This document shows, in pieces, positions 40,350 to 46,806 of a DNA stretch of 64,000 nucleotides. A program made the position numbers and the translations under genes. Every line of letters starts with the position of its first letter. The stretch's first letter is position 1. This stretch comes from Vulcanimicrobiota bacterium (lineage in GTDB: Bacteria > Vulcanimicrobiota > Vulcanimicrobiia > Vulcanimicrobiales > Vulcanimicrobiaceae): positions 248,001 through 312,000 of the forward strand of contig PMSI01000003.1 of assembly GCA_003168375.1 (NCBI GenBank). Direction: 5' to 3'. Below the pieces are notes generated by a model. That model saw only the letters and a list, made by a program, of their open reading frames with translations. It did not search any database and was not told where the DNA came from.

Positions 40350-41075
40350 GTGCGCGTCTTAGTCGTCGACGATGAAGCGCTGGTCCGCAGCGAGCTCGTC
40401 TACGCGCTGGGGAAGGTCGCCGGCGAGCTCGAGGTCACCGAGGCCCCCGACGCCGTCGAGGCGCTCCGTGAGCTCGCCGGCGCGCAGTACGACGTGGTCT
40501 TCCTCGACATCAGCCTGCCGGGGCTGAGCGGACTGGAAGCGACGAAGATCATCAATGCGCTTCCGTCGCCGCCGCACGTCGTTTTCGTGACCGCGCACGA
40601 CGGCCACGCCGTCGACGCGTTCGAGCTGGCGGCGTTCGACTACGTCGTGAAGCCGGTCTCCGAGGCGCGCCTCGCGCGCACGCTCGAACGGCTGCGGGCG
40701 GCGCGCGAGAGCTCCGCGCAGCCCGCGCCCGCGGTCGCGAATACCGGCCGCGTCGCGCTCGAGGACGGCGAACGGACGCGGCTGGTGAAGACGGCCGAGA
40801 TCCGCTACGTGCAGGCGAACGGCCACCTCGTCACGGCGCGCGTGTTCGACGGCGAGCTGCGCTGGAAGGGATCGCTCGCGGACGCGGCGTCGCGGCTCGA
40901 GCCGAGCGGGTTTCTGCGCGTGCACCGGGCGTATCTCGTCAATCCGGAGCGGGTGATCGAGGTCGAGCCGTTCTTCGGCGGATCGTATCTGCTGCGCGTC
41001 GACGACAAGAACCGCAGTGAGGTCCCCGTCTCGCGCAACTATCTGCCCGCGGTGCGCAAAGCACTGGGCCTGTGA
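40350..41075 (+). CDS. LytTR family response regulator
   Basis: A 241-residue regulator. Receiver domain: VRVLVVDDEALVRSELVYAL, phospho-acceptor Asp in YDVVFLDISLPGLSGLEATK, and Lys in AAFDYVVKPVSEARL. DNA-binding LytTR domain (about 135-241): TAEIRYVQANGHLVTARVFD, RLEPSGFLRVHRAYLVNPER, and PVSRNYLPAVRKALGL. GTG start. It overlaps the mannosidase gene (GTGA), so the pair may control, or be expressed with, the mannosidase and YhhN genes. Confidence 0.93.
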   Translation: MRVLVVDDEALVRSELVYALGKVAGELEVTEAPDAVEALRELAGAQYDVVFLDISLPGLSGLEATKIINALPSPPHVVFVTAHDGHAVDAFELAAFDYVVKPVSEARLARTLERLRAARESSAQPAPAVANTGRVALEDGERTRLVKTAEIRYVQANGHLVTARVFDGELRWKGSLADAASRLEPSGFLRVHRAYLVNPERVIEVEPFFGGSYLLRVDDKNRSEVPVSRNYLPAVRKALGL

Positions 41076-42463
41076 GGGCGGCGCGCAAATCGTTTCTGCT
41101 CGGGGCGGCTGCGGCCGTCGCCGCGCCGCGGATCGCGCGGGCCGCACCGGCTGCGTTCCGCCGGCCGGCACCGAAGGCCGTCGCGCAACTCGTGCGGACG
41201 GAGTTCCGGCACGCGTGGAACGGTTACAAGCTGGTCGCCTGGGGGCGTGACGAGGTCAAGCCGGTCTCCGGTACGACGAACGACTTCTTCGTCGACGGCA
41301 GAACGTTCGGGCTCTCGATCGTCGAGGCGCTCGACACGCTGTACGTTATGGAGCTCGACGACGACCTCGCGCGCTGCGTACGGTGGATCGATCAGCACTT
41401 GGAGTTGGACGTCGATGCCGACGTGCAGATGTTCGAGTGGGTGATTCGCATCGTCGGCGGGCTGCTCGCCGGTCACGCGGCGACCGGCGAGCGGATGCTG
41501 CTCGACCGCGCGCGGGAGGCGGCCGACCGCGTCTTCCCGTGCTTCGCGAAGTCCCCGACCGGCGCGCCGTACCGCTACGCCAACCTGCGGACCGGCGCGG
41601 TGCGCGAGCCGCTGATGAACCTCGCCGAGATCGGTAGCAACGTGCTGGAGTTCGGCGAGCTCTCGCGGCTGACGGGCGATCCGAAATATCTCGCCGCGTC
41701 GAGGCGCGCGTACGAGGCGGTACTCGCGAAGCGCTCGCCGCTCGGACTGCTGGCGACCTACTTCGACGTGGAAAAGGGAGCGTTCACCAAGAGCGTCGAC
41801 GTCGCGCCGAACCCGCCGGTCGACTCGTTCTACGAATATCTCTGGGGCGCGTGGGAGATGTTCGGCGACGCTGCATATCGCGATTGGTACCGCGTGCTGA
41901 CCGACGCGATCCTGAAGTACCAAGTCGATCGCACCAGCGGCGGCCTGTGGTTCCGGCAAGTCGACTACCTGAGCGGTGCGCCCGCCGGAACGCGGCAGGT
42001 CGAGCTCGCCGCGTTCTATGCAGAGCTGCTCGCACGGGGCGGTGACCGGGCGATCGGCGAGGCGTACTTCGATTCGTGGACCTCGATCTCGGACCGGTAT
42101 GGGATCATCCCGGAAGTCTTCGACTACGCGAGCGGGACGGTGAGCACGCCGAGCAACGAGCTGCGTCCCGAATACGCGAATGCCGCCTTCGACCTGTGGT
42201 TCCTCACCCGGGAGCAAAAGTATCGCGACGCGGCGTACCGGCATTTTCTCGCGTTGCGGGAACATTGCCGGGTTGCGAACGGCTACACGATCGTGGACGA
42301 CGTGCGGCCGCGGCCGATGAAGCTCGGCGACGTATTTCCCGCCTACTCGTTCGCTGAGAACTTCAAGTACCTGTACCTGATGTTCGCCGACGCGCCGCGC
42401 TTCGACGGTGATCGGCATTCCCTGAGCACCGAAGGGAAAGTGCTGCGCGGTCTGCGCCGATGA
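41072..42463 (+). CDS. Glycoside hydrolase family 47 alpha-mannosidase
   Basis: A 463-residue exported protein with a Tat-like or Sec leader (MRAARKSFLLGAAAAVAAPR then IARA). The mature part is an (alpha/alpha)7 GH47 enzyme: VRTEFRHAWNGYKLVAWGRD then EVKPVSG, FGLSIVEALDTLYVMELDDD, LAEIGSNVLEFGELSRLTGD, LRPEYANAAFDLWFLTREQK, SFAENFKYLYLMFADAP, and the calcium-binding Thr in LSTEGKVL. GH47 cleaves alpha-1,2-mannose; it is typical of eukaryotic N-glycan processing and rare in bacteria. GTG start overlaps the response regulator. It probably trims mannose-containing glycans outside the cytoplasm. Confidence 0.9.
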   Translation: MRAARKSFLLGAAAAVAAPRIARAAPAAFRRPAPKAVAQLVRTEFRHAWNGYKLVAWGRDEVKPVSGTTNDFFVDGRTFGLSIVEALDTLYVMELDDDLARCVRWIDQHLELDVDADVQMFEWVIRIVGGLLAGHAATGERMLLDRAREAADRVFPCFAKSPTGAPYRYANLRTGAVREPLMNLAEIGSNVLEFGELSRLTGDPKYLAASRRAYEAVLAKRSPLGLLATYFDVEKGAFTKSVDVAPNPPVDSFYEYLWGAWEMFGDAAYRDWYRVLTDAILKYQVDRTSGGLWFRQVDYLSGAPAGTRQVELAAFYAELLARGGDRAIGEAYFDSWTSISDRYGIIPEVFDYASGTVSTPSNELRPEYANAAFDLWFLTREQKYRDAAYRHFLALREHCRVANGYTIVDDVRPRPMKLGDVFPAYSFAENFKYLYLMFADAPRFDGDRHSLSTEGKVLRGLRR

Positions 42464-43149
42464 AGCCGTTCCTGATCGTCTTCGGGCTCCTGGCGCTGAC
42501 GGATCTGGCATTGCTCGCGAGCGGGCACGACGCCCTGCGCTGGTATACCAAGCCGTTCCTGATGCCGGTCCTGGCGGTCGGCGTCGTCGTCGCGGCGCGC
42601 TGGCGGCTCGACCGTGCGCGCGCCGCGCTCGTCCTCGGGCTGATCGCGAGCGCGACCGGCGATACGGCGCTGCTCCGCTCCGGAGACGGCGCGTTCGTGC
42701 TCGGCACGCTGTGGTTTGCAATGGCGCAGCTGTGCTACATCGTCGCTGTCGCGAACGCGGGCCGGGGACGCGGCCTGGTGCGGCGCCGGCCCTGGCTCGC
42801 GATCCCGTACGCCGGCGTGTGGCTCGCCGGCACCGCGCTGCTGTGGCAGCACCTGGGTGCGTTGCGCGTCGCGGTCGTACCCTACAGCGCGCTGCTCACC
42901 GCGATGGCGGTGTGCGCCCTCGACCTCTTCGGCCGGATCGTGCGTCGCGACGCGCTGCTCGTCGCCGCCGGCGCGGCGATGTTCGTGCTCAGCGACTCGA
43001 CGCTGGCCTTCGAGCGCTTCGATGCGGCGCTCGCGCCGCCGCAGGCGCCGCTGCTGGTGATGCTGACATACGTGATCGCGCAGGCGCTGATCGTCAGCGG
43101 GCTCGCGGGGCGACGGGAACCGGCGCCTCCAGCGGCCGTCCGGCCATGA
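42460..43149 (+). CDS. YhhN family lysoplasmalogenase-like membrane protein
   Basis: A 229-residue protein with about eight membrane helices. WYTKPFLMPVLAVGVVVAAR, GLIASATGDTALLRSGDGAF, VLGTLWFAMAQLCYIVAVAN and MFVLSDSTLAFERFDAALAP match the YhhN/TMEM86 family, which includes lysoplasmalogenase and related lipid hydrolases. ATG overlaps the mannosidase stop. The C-terminal end overlaps a convergent gene by 56 bases. The substrate in this organism is unknown. Confidence 0.88.
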   Translation: MKPFLIVFGLLALTDLALLASGHDALRWYTKPFLMPVLAVGVVVAARWRLDRARAALVLGLIASATGDTALLRSGDGAFVLGTLWFAMAQLCYIVAVANAGRGRGLVRRRPWLAIPYAGVWLAGTALLWQHLGALRVAVVPYSALLTAMAVCALDLFGRIVRRDALLVAAGAAMFVLSDSTLAFERFDAALAPPQAPLLVMLTYVIAQALIVSGLAGRREPAPPAAVRP

Positions 43150-44059
43150 AGTGGCCGAGGTTGCGCTCGACGAGCGCCAGGATGCGGCGCGGCGCGACGT
43201 CGCCGCCGTAGCCCGCGACGTGCGGGGTGATCAGCACGTTCGGCAACGTCCACAAGGGATCGCCGGGCGGAAGCGGCTCGGGATCAGTGACGTCGAGACC
43301 GGCCGCGCCCAGACGGCCGCCGGCGAGCGCGTCGTACAGTGCGGCGTGGTCGACGACGCCGCCGCGCGAGACGTTGATCACGATCGCATGCGGCCGCAGC
43401 GCCTCGAGCGCGGCGGCGCCCAGCAGGTGCCGGGTCTGTGCGTTCAGGGGCAGCGCGAGGACGACGGCGTCGCTGCGCGCGAAAACGGCCGGCAGCTCCG
43501 CGGCGTCCGCCGATTCGTCGGCGAGCGGGTCGGCGCGGCCGCTGCGCGTCACGGCGATGATGCGCGCGCCGAACCCGCGTATCCGCGTCGCGACCTCGCG
43601 TCCGATGTTGCCGAACCCGACCACGGCGACGGTCGCGCCGTTCAGCGTTCCGATCTCCCCCGCGCCTGCCTGGTCCCAGCGGCCGTCGAGGCCGTTTCGG
43701 ACCGCGGCGGGGATCCGCCGCACCAGGGCCAGCAGCAGCGCGACGGCATGCTCGGCGACAGTCGGGGCGTAGGCGTCGCCGGCGCAGGTTACGGTCACCC
43801 CCGGCGGGACACCGTGCAGCTCGACCGGATCGTAGCCCATCGTCGGCAGTTGCACCCAGCGCAAGCGCGGCGCGTGGCGTTCGAGCAGCGCCACCAGGTC
43901 CGCGTCGTAGAACGTCGGCCAGGTCCAGAGCGCGTCGGCGTCGGCCAGCTCGCGGCGCATCCCCTCCGCGTCGTCGACCGCAGTGCTGTCCGCCCCCAGG
44001 CGCCCCGCGAGCGCCTCGAACTGCGGTGCCAGAACGGGAGTTCGTATCACGACGCGCAT
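43094..44059 (-). CDS. D-2-hydroxyacid dehydrogenase family protein
   Basis: A 321-residue NAD(P)-dependent enzyme. The substrate domain has LRWVQLPTMGYDPVELHGVP; the cofactor domain has GATVAVVGFGNIGREVATRI; VVLALPLNAQTRHLLGAAAL, AIVINVSRGGVVDHAALYDA, GAAGLDVTDPEPLPPGDPLW (catalytic Glu region) and NVLITPHVAGYGGDVAPRRI (catalytic His) are present. The family covers glyoxylate/hydroxypyruvate and related 2-ketoacid reductases; the substrate is not evident. ATG at 44059; divergent from the aldolase-like gene at 44168. Confidence 0.92.
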   Translation of the reverse strand: MRVVIRTPVLAPQFEALAGRLGADSTAVDDAEGMRRELADADALWTWPTFYDADLVALLERHAPRLRWVQLPTMGYDPVELHGVPPGVTVTCAGDAYAPTVAEHAVALLLALVRRIPAAVRNGLDGRWDQAGAGEIGTLNGATVAVVGFGNIGREVATRIRGFGARIIAVTRSGRADPLADESADAAELPAVFARSDAVVLALPLNAQTRHLLGAAALEALRPHAIVINVSRGGVVDHAALYDALAGGRLGAAGLDVTDPEPLPPGDPLWTLPNVLITPHVAGYGGDVAPRRILALVERNLGHFMAGRPLEAPVPVAPRAR

Positions 44060-44167: not shown

Positions 44168-45226
44168 ATGACGAACGATCTCGCCACGATCGCGCAGGCC
44201 CTGGTCTCCGGCGGCCGCGGTATCCTTCCGATCGACGCAACGCCGAAAACGTGCAACGCACGCTTCATCGGGTTCGCGATCGCGCCGACCGAGGAAAATC
44301 GCCGAGCGTACCGCGAGTTCGTCGTCACCGCCCCCGGAATCGACCGTTACGTCGGCGGGATGACGCTGGACCACGAGGCGATGCGCCAGACCGACGCGGA
44401 CGGCCGCCGTTTCGTCGACATCCTGCGCGGGCGCCGGATCGTCCCCGGGGTCACCGTCGAGAGCGGCAGCTCGCCGCTCCCGTTCTCGCCCGGCGAGACG
44501 GTCGTCGAAGGACTGGACGGCCTGCGCGGCCGGCTGGTCGAGTACGCCGCGCTCGGTGCCGGGTTCGCGAAGCGCCGCGCGACGTTCCGCATCTCCGAGG
44601 TCGGCGGCGAGACGCCGTCCGACCGCGCGATCGCGGCGAACGCACACGCACTGGCGCGCTTCGCGGCGCTGGCCCAGGAATGCGGCATCGTTCCGATCCT
44701 CGAACCCGAAGTGCTCGCGGAAGGCGACCACGACATCGCGCGCTGCGCCGACGCGACGGAACGTGTGTTGCGCCGCCTGTTCGCGGAGCTCGCGGAGGCG
44801 GGCGTCGCGCTCGAAGCGATGGTGCTGCAGCCGAACATGGTCGCACCCGGCGGCGCGTCGTCGCAGCGCGTCGAGACCGCCGACGTCGTCGCGGCGACAC
44901 TGCGCGTGCTCGGTACGACGGTGCCCGTAGCGGTCGCCGGCATCGCGTTCATCGCGGGGGCCGAGGACGATCGCATCGCGCGCGAGCGGCTCTGCTCGCT
45001 GAACAAGACGATGCCGCGCCGCCGCCCTTGGCCGTTGACGTTCTCGTACGGCGGCGCGCTGCAGCAGGCGGTGCTCGCAGCATGGGGCGGCCGCTCCGAC
45101 CGCGTGCTCGAGGCGCAGCGTATTCTGGTGCATCACGCGTACTGCAGCGGGCTCGCGGCCTGCGGCGCGTACACCGTGAAGGTCGAGGATCTGCTGGAGA
45201 CGTTCGCGGTTCCGATCGCCGCGTAG
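44168..45226 (+). CDS. Class I fructose-bisphosphate aldolase homologue lacking catalytic residues
   Basis: A 352-residue TIM-barrel protein clearly of the eukaryote-type class I aldolase family: GRGILPIDATPKTCNARF, PTEENRRAYREFVVTAPGI, EGLDGLRGRLVEYAALGAGF, IVPILEPEVLAEGDHDIARC, and RRPWPLTFSYGGALQQAVLA. However, the Schiff-base Lys in the family motif LLKPNMV is Gln here (VLQPNMVAPGG); the phosphate-binding Arg of FSYGRALQ is Gly; the Lys of 'WRCVLKI' is Arg (RRATFRI); and the SGGQ loop reads AGAE. The DNA is clear at these points. It therefore cannot use the standard mechanism. It may be a non-enzymatic or re-purposed protein. GTG just before the ATG is an alternative start. Confidence 0.85.
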   Translation: MTNDLATIAQALVSGGRGILPIDATPKTCNARFIGFAIAPTEENRRAYREFVVTAPGIDRYVGGMTLDHEAMRQTDADGRRFVDILRGRRIVPGVTVESGSSPLPFSPGETVVEGLDGLRGRLVEYAALGAGFAKRRATFRISEVGGETPSDRAIAANAHALARFAALAQECGIVPILEPEVLAEGDHDIARCADATERVLRRLFAELAEAGVALEAMVLQPNMVAPGGASSQRVETADVVAATLRVLGTTVPVAVAGIAFIAGAEDDRIARERLCSLNKTMPRRRPWPLTFSYGGALQQAVLAAWGGRSDRVLEAQRILVHHAYCSGLAACGAYTVKVEDLLETFAVPIAA

Positions 45227-45288
45227 CGGGGATCGCGCCGCGCCGGCCCCGAGGGGGACGGCCGCGGACGGCGTCCGAAGCCCGCCGC

Positions 45289-46806
45289 ATGTCGTTCGTC
45301 TCGACCCTGTTCGCGACCAGCTCCGTCGAGAAGCTGCGCGCGATGAGCAAGAGCAAGAGGCTGCGCCGCGCGCTCACGGCCAAGGACCTCGTCGCGATCG
45401 GGCTCGGAACGATGATCGGCGGCGGGATCTTCACCACCATCGGGACCGGTGTCAAAGGCGCCGGTCCCGCCGTCATCGTTTCGTATCTGCTCGCCGGCCT
45501 GACCTCGTTCTTCGCGGCGCTGTGCTACGCCGAGCTGGGCGCGATGGTACCCGTCGCGGGCAGTGCCTACACGTACGCGTACGCGACGATGGGGAAGCTG
45601 TTCGCCTGGATCATCGGCTTCGCGCTGATCTTCGAGTACGGGATCAGCGCCGCACCGGTCGCACAACAGTTCTCCGCGGCGATCCAGGACGTGCTCAAGA
45701 CCATCGGCGTCGTTGTGCCGAGCTGGGCGCAGACGTCGAATCTGGTCATCCACGGTGATTGGTGGCAGCCCGCCGCGTACGACCTCGCGCATTCCCAGTA
45801 CGACATCGTCGGCGCGGTGTTCGTGCTCGGGCTGAGCGTGCTGCTCTCCATCGGGATTCGCGAGTCGGCGACGACCAACAACATCTTCGTGGTGCTGAAG
45901 ATCTCGGCGCTGCTGGTCTTCATCGTCGCCGGCTTGTTCTTGTTCCACGCGTTCAACCTGCACGACTTCAACCCCAAGGGGATCGGAGCGCTGGTGCCGT
46001 TCGGCGGCGCGGTCGAATCGGACCAACCGTATGGGATCATCCCGATCGCGGCGTTCGTGTTCTTCAGCTACATCGGCTTCGACACGGCGACCACCACGGC
46101 CGAGGAGTGCAAGAACCCGCAGCGCGACGTGCCGATGGGCGTCATCGGTGCTTTGGCGATCGGCACCGTGATCTACTGCGCGACCGCGATCGTGCTGGTC
46201 GGCGCGGTGCCGTGGCAGCAGGTCTCGGTGAAGAATCCGCTGGTCGCGGCGCTGGCGCCGCTGAACCTCCCGATCCTGAACTGGGTCATCACGATCGGCG
46301 TCCTGGCCGGTACGACCAGCGTCGCCCTCGCCTCGCTGCTCGGGCAGTCGCGGATCTTCTACGTGATGGCGCGCGACAAGATGCTGCCTCCCGCGGTGGC
46401 GCACATCCACCCGCGCTTCAAAACGCCGGTCATCACCACGATGATCACCGGCGTCGCCGTGGCCCTGCTCACGCTGATCGTGCCGCTGGTCCAGCTGCTC
46501 AACCTGGTCAACATCGGGACGCTGATGGCGTTCACCGTCGTCTGCGCCGGCGTGCTGTACCTGCGGCACCGCAAACCGGATATCCCGCGCACGTTCCGCG
46601 TACCGTTCGTTCCGCTCTTCCCGATCCTGGGGATCGTCTTCTCGCTGTTCCTGGCGATCTTCGGGCTGTCGCGCACGACGTGGATCTGGTTCGCGCTCGC
46701 GCTGGTCGTCGGGCTGATCTTTTTCTTCAGCTACGGCTATTGGAAGTCGAAGCCGGAAGAGATCGCCGCGGTCGAGGAGCCCGAGGGCCTGTCCGAGTTC
46801 GCATAG
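45289..46806 (+). CDS. APC superfamily amino acid permease (cationic amino acid transporter type)
   Basis: A 505-residue transporter with about 12 membrane helices. LTAKDLVAIGLGTMIGGGIF is the substrate-binding first helix; YLLAGLTSFFAALCYAELGA then MVPVAGSAYTYAYATMGKLF, IAAFVFFSYIGFDTATTTAE and ECKNPQRDVPMGVIGALAIG match the CAT/YfnA branch. Import of amino acids in exchange for protons is expected. The downstream Nudix gene starts 8 bases after the stop. Confidence 0.93.
   Translation: MSFVSTLFATSSVEKLRAMSKSKRLRRALTAKDLVAIGLGTMIGGGIFTTIGTGVKGAGPAVIVSYLLAGLTSFFAALCYAELGAMVPVAGSAYTYAYATMGKLFAWIIGFALIFEYGISAAPVAQQFSAAIQDVLKTIGVVVPSWAQTSNLVIHGDWWQPAAYDLAHSQYDIVGAVFVLGLSVLLSIGIRESATTNNIFVVLKISALLVFIVAGLFLFHAFNLHDFNPKGIGALVPFGGAVESDQPYGIIPIAAFVFFSYIGFDTATTTAEECKNPQRDVPMGVIGALAIGTVIYCATAIVLVGAVPWQQVSVKNPLVAALAPLNLPILNWVITIGVLAGTTSVALASLLGQSRIFYVMARDKMLPPAVAHIHPRFKTPVITTMITGVAVALLTLIVPLVQLLNLVNIGTLMAFTVVCAGVLYLRHRKPDIPRTFRVPFVPLFPILGIVFSLFLAIFGLSRTTWIWFALALVVGLIFFFSYGYWKSKPEEIAAVEEPEGLSEFA

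Follow-up and report, generated by a model that had tools for sequence, protein, structure and literature searches.

A class I aldolase-like protein that lacks its Schiff-base lysine and is probably retained as a pseudoenzyme in one WPS-2 genus

Class I fructose-bisphosphate aldolases (FBAs; PF00274), represented by the rabbit muscle and the Bartonella henselae (PDB ID: 3mmt) enzymes, form the family to which the gene described here belongs. Its protein shares with them the length, the TIM barrel and the residues D33, K146, R148, E187 and E189 (numbered by alignment to rabbit aldolase A unless stated otherwise), but lacks K229, K107, S271, R303 and E34, and its pocket is no longer conserved. 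The pseudoenzyme PDX1.2 is thought to co-assemble with its catalytic paralogues; such paralogues stand beside PDX1.2, whereas none were found in the carriers studied here. PMC6829848 describes PDX1.2 as a plant pseudoenzyme, non-catalytic and limited to one clade, and the present protein resembles it in being, as judged from its sequence, a non-catalytic pseudoenzyme of a single clade. Adducin contains another aldolase fold that has become non-catalytic and binds proteins (PMC12599920); this class II aldolase domain differs in its class II fold, its unrelated family and its place in the animal cytoskeleton. In the open-access literature we found no description of a natural class I aldolase pseudoenzyme that is both lysine-less and maintained.

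The gene lies at positions 44168-45226 on the plus strand of the window, by which we mean the whole stretch of 64,000 nucleotides that was analysed, and encodes 352 amino acids in an uninterrupted open reading frame nested in a longer open frame. A Pfam profile search matched the protein to PF00274 at 334.6 bits, and the NCBIfam equivalog model NF033379 matched it at 361.7 bits with a cut-off of 250. The top PDB match was the Bartonella enzyme 3mmt (E = 5e-79), followed by rabbit and human aldolase A. The AlphaFold2 model based on a 38-row alignment reached a mean pLDDT of 88.4, superseding a model from 3 alignment rows (pLDDT 49.7), and its predicted TIM barrel matched rabbit aldolase with a TM-score of 0.92. 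These data bear out the class I aldolase family, the preserved fold and length and the undamaged frame, all of which a first-pass annotation had read from the sequence.

Alongside the profile match and the fold of a functional aldolase, the protein has lost a large part of the active site. The Schiff-base lysine of strand 6, K229, is a glutamine at codon 221 (44828-44830, plus strand, as are all codons given here); the phosphate-binding R303 is a glycine at codon 296 (45053-45055); S271 is an alanine at codon 263 (44954-44956), the SGGQ loop reading AGAE; K107 is a threonine at codon 96 (44453-44455); and E34 is an alanine at codon 24 (44237-44239). These replacements were assigned by alignment, and the position of the Schiff-base residue in VLQPNMV was occupied by Gln rather than Lys in the alignments. 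In addition, W147 is R136. Of the retained residues, D33, K146 and E187 are not kept in every other carrier of the gene. K107, K146, K229, S271, R303 and E34 are each invariant in 15/15 intact family copies, a comparison that leaves out the incomplete G017, G064 and G028 and an actinobacterial copy, and the losses are beyond chance because of this invariance. Five residues fixed in the 15 intact genes are missing from all variants, namely Y68, K96, Y165, K221 and S263 in the numbering of the 44168-45226 protein, where K96, K221 and S263 correspond to rabbit K107, K229 and S271. Most of the residue losses noted in the first-pass annotation, i.e., those of the catalytic lysine, the phosphate-binding arginine and the SGGQ loop, are therefore real, whereas its second active-site lysine, seen as Arg in RRATFRI, was misplaced. 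That residue aligns with rabbit position 152. Both intact copies of the genus have R there as well, and the remaining 13 intact ones have A, T or V, so that no catalytic loss is involved. The genuine active-site K146 of barrel strand 4 is the retained lysine of codon 135 (44570-44572) in GFAKRR, and the losses of K107, E34 and W147 had not been recognized.

To place the gene among its relatives, we aligned 22 loci of the bacterial family and sampled 11 genomes of the genus. K229 was absent from five of the 22 loci and kept in the other 17/17. All lysine-less genes belong to the genus of the host, i.e., the organism carrying the window, and were found in 5/11 genomes, with Gln at this position in the host and G095, Thr in G091 and Ala in G094 and G090. 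Orthologues are present in four more genomes, and none has the lysine. Two further genomes of the genus, G087 and G092, carry an intact PF00274 gene at another place, and four of the 11 lack any such gene. In the tree the five lysine-less genes formed one clade (support 100/98), sister to the intact genes of the genus. A relative of the host protein, from G095, is 91% identical; its gene is truncated by the contig start, so that 223 codons were compared and E34, D33 and K107 fall outside. No lysine-less members outside the genus were found among 117 genomes of the class or 149 genomes of the phylum, and a scan of GTDB contigs returned, among the matches listed, G095 itself and one actinobacterial homologue but no further member. 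Class I aldolases are also encoded on 79 contigs of the IMG/VR viral collection (L083-L161), some longer than 80 kb, and 35/35 of those aligned from the 79 loci retain the catalytic lysine.

We infer a loss of catalytic activity because the Schiff-base lysine is missing, and consider the protein to be, with fair probability, a pseudoenzyme specific to this lineage that persists as a folded barrel scaffold with a non-catalytic role. Slow decay is a rather unlikely alternative, in which a DhnA-type aldolase took over the reaction, the class I gene drifts, and the frames stay open since stops are rare in a GC-rich genome. It would account for the differing residues that fill the same catalytic positions from carrier to carrier, for large deletions in the G090 and G091 copies and for the 6/11 genomes of the genus without the gene. 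The substitution pattern between the host gene and G095 argues against it. Over the 223 codons, substitutions at codon positions 1/2/3 numbered 13/11/70 (chi-square p = 3e-16 against equality), and dN/dS (w) was 0.093 (95% bootstrap 0.054-0.147), similar to the values for flanking genes of the same pair of 0.10 (permease), 0.12 (dlh) and 0.20 (hly3), the latter two being our labels for two further flanking genes. The catalytic lysine was lost before the two lineages split, because both copies have Gln at 229, and this constraint therefore came after the loss.

A branch codon model, implemented as a custom script and run on the five variant genes alone, gave terminal w values of 0.02 (host), 0.12 (G095), 0.16 (G091), 0.25 (G094) and 0.40 (G090), and w = 1 was rejected on all five branches (2dL of 20.9, 7.4, 27.3, 31.6 and 7.3, respectively). 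The branch ahead of the host/G095 pair had a w of 0.68, for which w = 1 was not rejected, a point in favor of decay. A second codon model returned the same order with lower values and a w of 1.6 for the pre-pair branch, not different from 1. As a control, the permease gave w values of 0.02-0.21 in the branch model; the G091, G094 and G090 branches (0.16-0.40) exceed the permease there (0.04-0.13, two models), and constraint is therefore weaker in these three lineages. A phase of relaxed or rapid evolution, after which constraint returns, is typical of a protein that has changed its role. A nine-taxon codon model including the intact genes was dropped, as synonymous sites were saturated with branch lengths up to 55, rendering the w of the intact branches meaningless. 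An overlapping antisense gene was rejected as the cause of the conservation: the changes concentrate at the third codon position when read in sense, and in G091 and G090 a stop interrupts the long antisense frame. The dS to G095 (L036) differs between neighbours, being 0.55 for the aldolase-like gene and 0.17 for the permease, perhaps owing to recombination.

The deletions point in the same direction as the substitutions. Across three lineages we counted 13 lineage-specific gaps, 13/13 of them in frame, for which the odds are 1 in 1.6 million if gaps are independent and random. On the predicted model, 12/13 gap midpoints fall on the catalytic side, a result equalled by random placement in 0.1% of trials, as do 108/134 of the deleted residues. 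The catalytic side, taken as the strand end to the middle of the next helix, was defined after the gaps had been seen and with strand 6 placed by hand. The largest exception is a 21-residue gap in G090, of which 43% lies on that side. Erosion is hence uneven and concentrated on the pocket side. No in-frame stops occur in any of the five carriers (the G095 copy being partial) and neutral substitution was rejected on every terminal branch, which does not fit a pseudogene; catalytic residues lost with the fold kept, as seen in the alignment and the predicted model, together with selection after the loss, are what is expected of a pseudoenzyme. Plain decay is thus disfavoured for the host gene and G095, and less so for G090 and G091.

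The distribution of constraint within the protein bears on a second alternative, a changed enzyme using the pocket on another substrate, possibly with K135 of strand 4 as the new Schiff-base residue. Transaldolase uses a strand-4 lysine. The host protein retains K135, R137, D23, E179 and E181 (own numbering), and the w of 0.02 on its branch would suit such an enzyme. The pocket itself, however, is the least conserved part. For 22 positions taken to form the pocket in rabbit numbering, pairwise identity among four intact genes was 95%, compared to 54% for the rest, whereas among four variants this relation was inverted, with 38% for the pocket and 60% for the rest. The intact genus pair G092/G087 is identical at 20/22 pocket positions and 206/306 elsewhere; for the host and G095 the corresponding values are 10/16 and 178/191, and the differences of this pair cluster within two residues of the pocket (8/38 vs 11/185 sites, p = 0.006). 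Invariant sites on the catalytic side number 18/98 in the variants and 56/143 in the intact genes (p = 6e-4). K146 is still a lysine in the host and G095 but has become A in G091, T in G094 and R in G090, and valine replaces E187 in G095. Since R148 is the only main ligand shared by all five carriers, a new reaction in the former pocket is disfavoured, and we regard the changed enzyme as improbable. Of the selection for a different function proposed in the first-pass annotation, selection beyond aldolase catalysis is supported by the dN/dS after the lysine loss and the orthologues in four more genomes; a new catalytic function is not supported, given the disagreeing pocket residues and the deletions gathered on the catalytic side.

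Returning to the pseudoenzyme, a binding or structural role is suggested because the old active site is least constrained while the barrel, the opposite face and the C-terminal helices are kept. A clade-specific conserved segment, MPRRRPW (codons 282-288; 45011-45031, plus strand), precedes strand 8 on the non-catalytic side; PRRRPW is invariant in the five variants, and P283, R284 and R286 are clade-specific under a 20% rule. Nucleic-acid binding via these arginines was considered and rejected, as the variants have a pI of 6.0-7.7, against 5.5-7.1 in the family and actinobacterial proteins, and the intact proteins of the genus are about as rich in Arg.

Regarding another normal aldolase in the host genome, which is 97% complete, no second PF00274 gene was found, and neither was a class II aldolase (PF01116) or a PF01950-type aldolase/phosphatase; a DhnA-type class I aldolase, L031 (PF01791), is present. 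Its best PDB match is the T. tenax FBPA 1ojx, and its ADIVK lysine aligns with the ADAMK lysine of 1ojx, which we take to be the Schiff-base residue. Since all of its NCBIfam matches fall short of the cut-offs (the best reaching 213 of 277), the DhnA-type name is a putative one. L031 thus belongs to another family than the aldolase-like protein and keeps the aligned lysine, and has in common with it the presumed reaction of the ancestral enzyme. A phosphofructokinase gene is present as well, and L031 is likely the working aldolase of the host. The DhnA type occurs in 75/99 genomes of the family and 10/11 of the genus, where the exception is the lysine-less carrier G095, an incomplete assembly. 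The 24 family genomes without it comprise 10 with a strong PF00274 match, 8 with weak PF00274 matches only, G095, and 5 with neither; two of the weak loci (L023, L027) were identified as full-scoring NF003784 class I aldolases, a third type. Genomes of the family that have neither the DhnA type nor a strong PF00274 gene may often carry this third type, and different aldolases seem to have replaced one another several times in the family.

By analogy to PDX1.2, the protein could be a regulatory subunit assembled together with a catalytic class I aldolase; the fold kept in the predicted model would fit this, and class I FBAs are tetramers. Such a heteromer is nevertheless very improbable, because no carrier has a catalytic twin, the search for a second PF00274 gene having been negative in the other four carriers as well. 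That the protein is still an ordinary FBA, as the NF033379 match would name it, is hardly credible, as K229, S271, R303 and K107 are gone and the same model also passes the lysine-less proteins of G091 (281 bits) and G094 (292 bits).

Directly downstream of the gene lies an APC-family amino acid permease (45289-46806, plus strand; Pfam AA_permease, 160 bits), which adjoins the variant gene in 4/5 carriers, and upstream a divergent D-2-hydroxyacid dehydrogenase (43094-44059, minus strand; PF02826, 189 bits), also the neighbour in G091. In G091 a 2.2-kb insert separates the aldolase-like gene from the permease, which speaks against a clade-wide operon; in G092 and G096 the dehydrogenase adjoins the permease with no aldolase in between. 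The permease tree of the genus gives a single branch of the carriers weak support (50/81). The G091 insert (L037:10744-12741) contains a minus-strand stretch with a 496-aa ORF, putatively peroxidase-like. Between the gene and the permease, a short G-rich stretch at 45227-45288 (GGGGGACG...CGAAGCC) is shared by several genomes of the genus, including some without the aldolase-like gene. A riboswitch at this site was rejected, as Rfam gave no match at gathering scores across the window and the sub-threshold matches were implausible. Further upstream, 41072-42463 (plus strand) encodes a member of glycoside hydrolase family 47 (PF01532, 314 bits), homologues of which also occur close to the aldolase-like gene of G091 and of G090. 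This family is best known from eukaryotic mannosidases.

We propose that in the ancestor of a subset of one genus of candidate division WPS-2, for which Eremiobacterota is a synonym, the PF00274 aldolase would have become dispensable because the DhnA type does the same reaction and would have taken it over. The Schiff-base lysine and phosphate ligands would then have been lost while the protein was retained for a non-catalytic role. The pseudoenzyme probably works as a binding protein through its barrel and non-catalytic face, the folded TIM-barrel scaffold most likely contacting a partner with its conserved region distant from the catalytic mouth, for which the N-terminal strand ends, helices 6-8, the MPRRRPW segment and the CGAYT end are candidates. 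Counting against this proposal are the variants outside the host/G095 pair, which evolve faster than the permease, the reduction of the G090 copy to 258 aa, the w of the pre-pair branch, the lack of a clade-wide operon and the lack of a DhnA-type gene in G095. The variant is dispensable at the genus level, being absent from 6/11 genomes, and the copies of G091, G094 and G090 could be on their way out.

The variants measure 352, 343, 314 and 258 aa, and in the G090 copy the D33 end of strand 1 is gone, together with most loops of the catalytic side. They may quite possibly, though we put this forward tentatively, represent a natural series within one genus in which an aldolase barrel is stripped stepwise of its catalytic face while the opposite face and the C-terminal helices are still selected, turning a TIM barrel into a pure scaffold; the 258-aa form may then be a functional reduced barrel. 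If true, this series would show which elements of the fold remain necessary when no chemistry is performed. For genome annotation, it matters that an NCBI equivalog model names lysine-less proteins active aldolases; metabolic reconstructions of uncultured phyla can be misled in this way. For the genus itself, a textbook glycolytic enzyme would provide a case of redundancy, lost chemistry and retention, with intact sister genes at hand for comparison.
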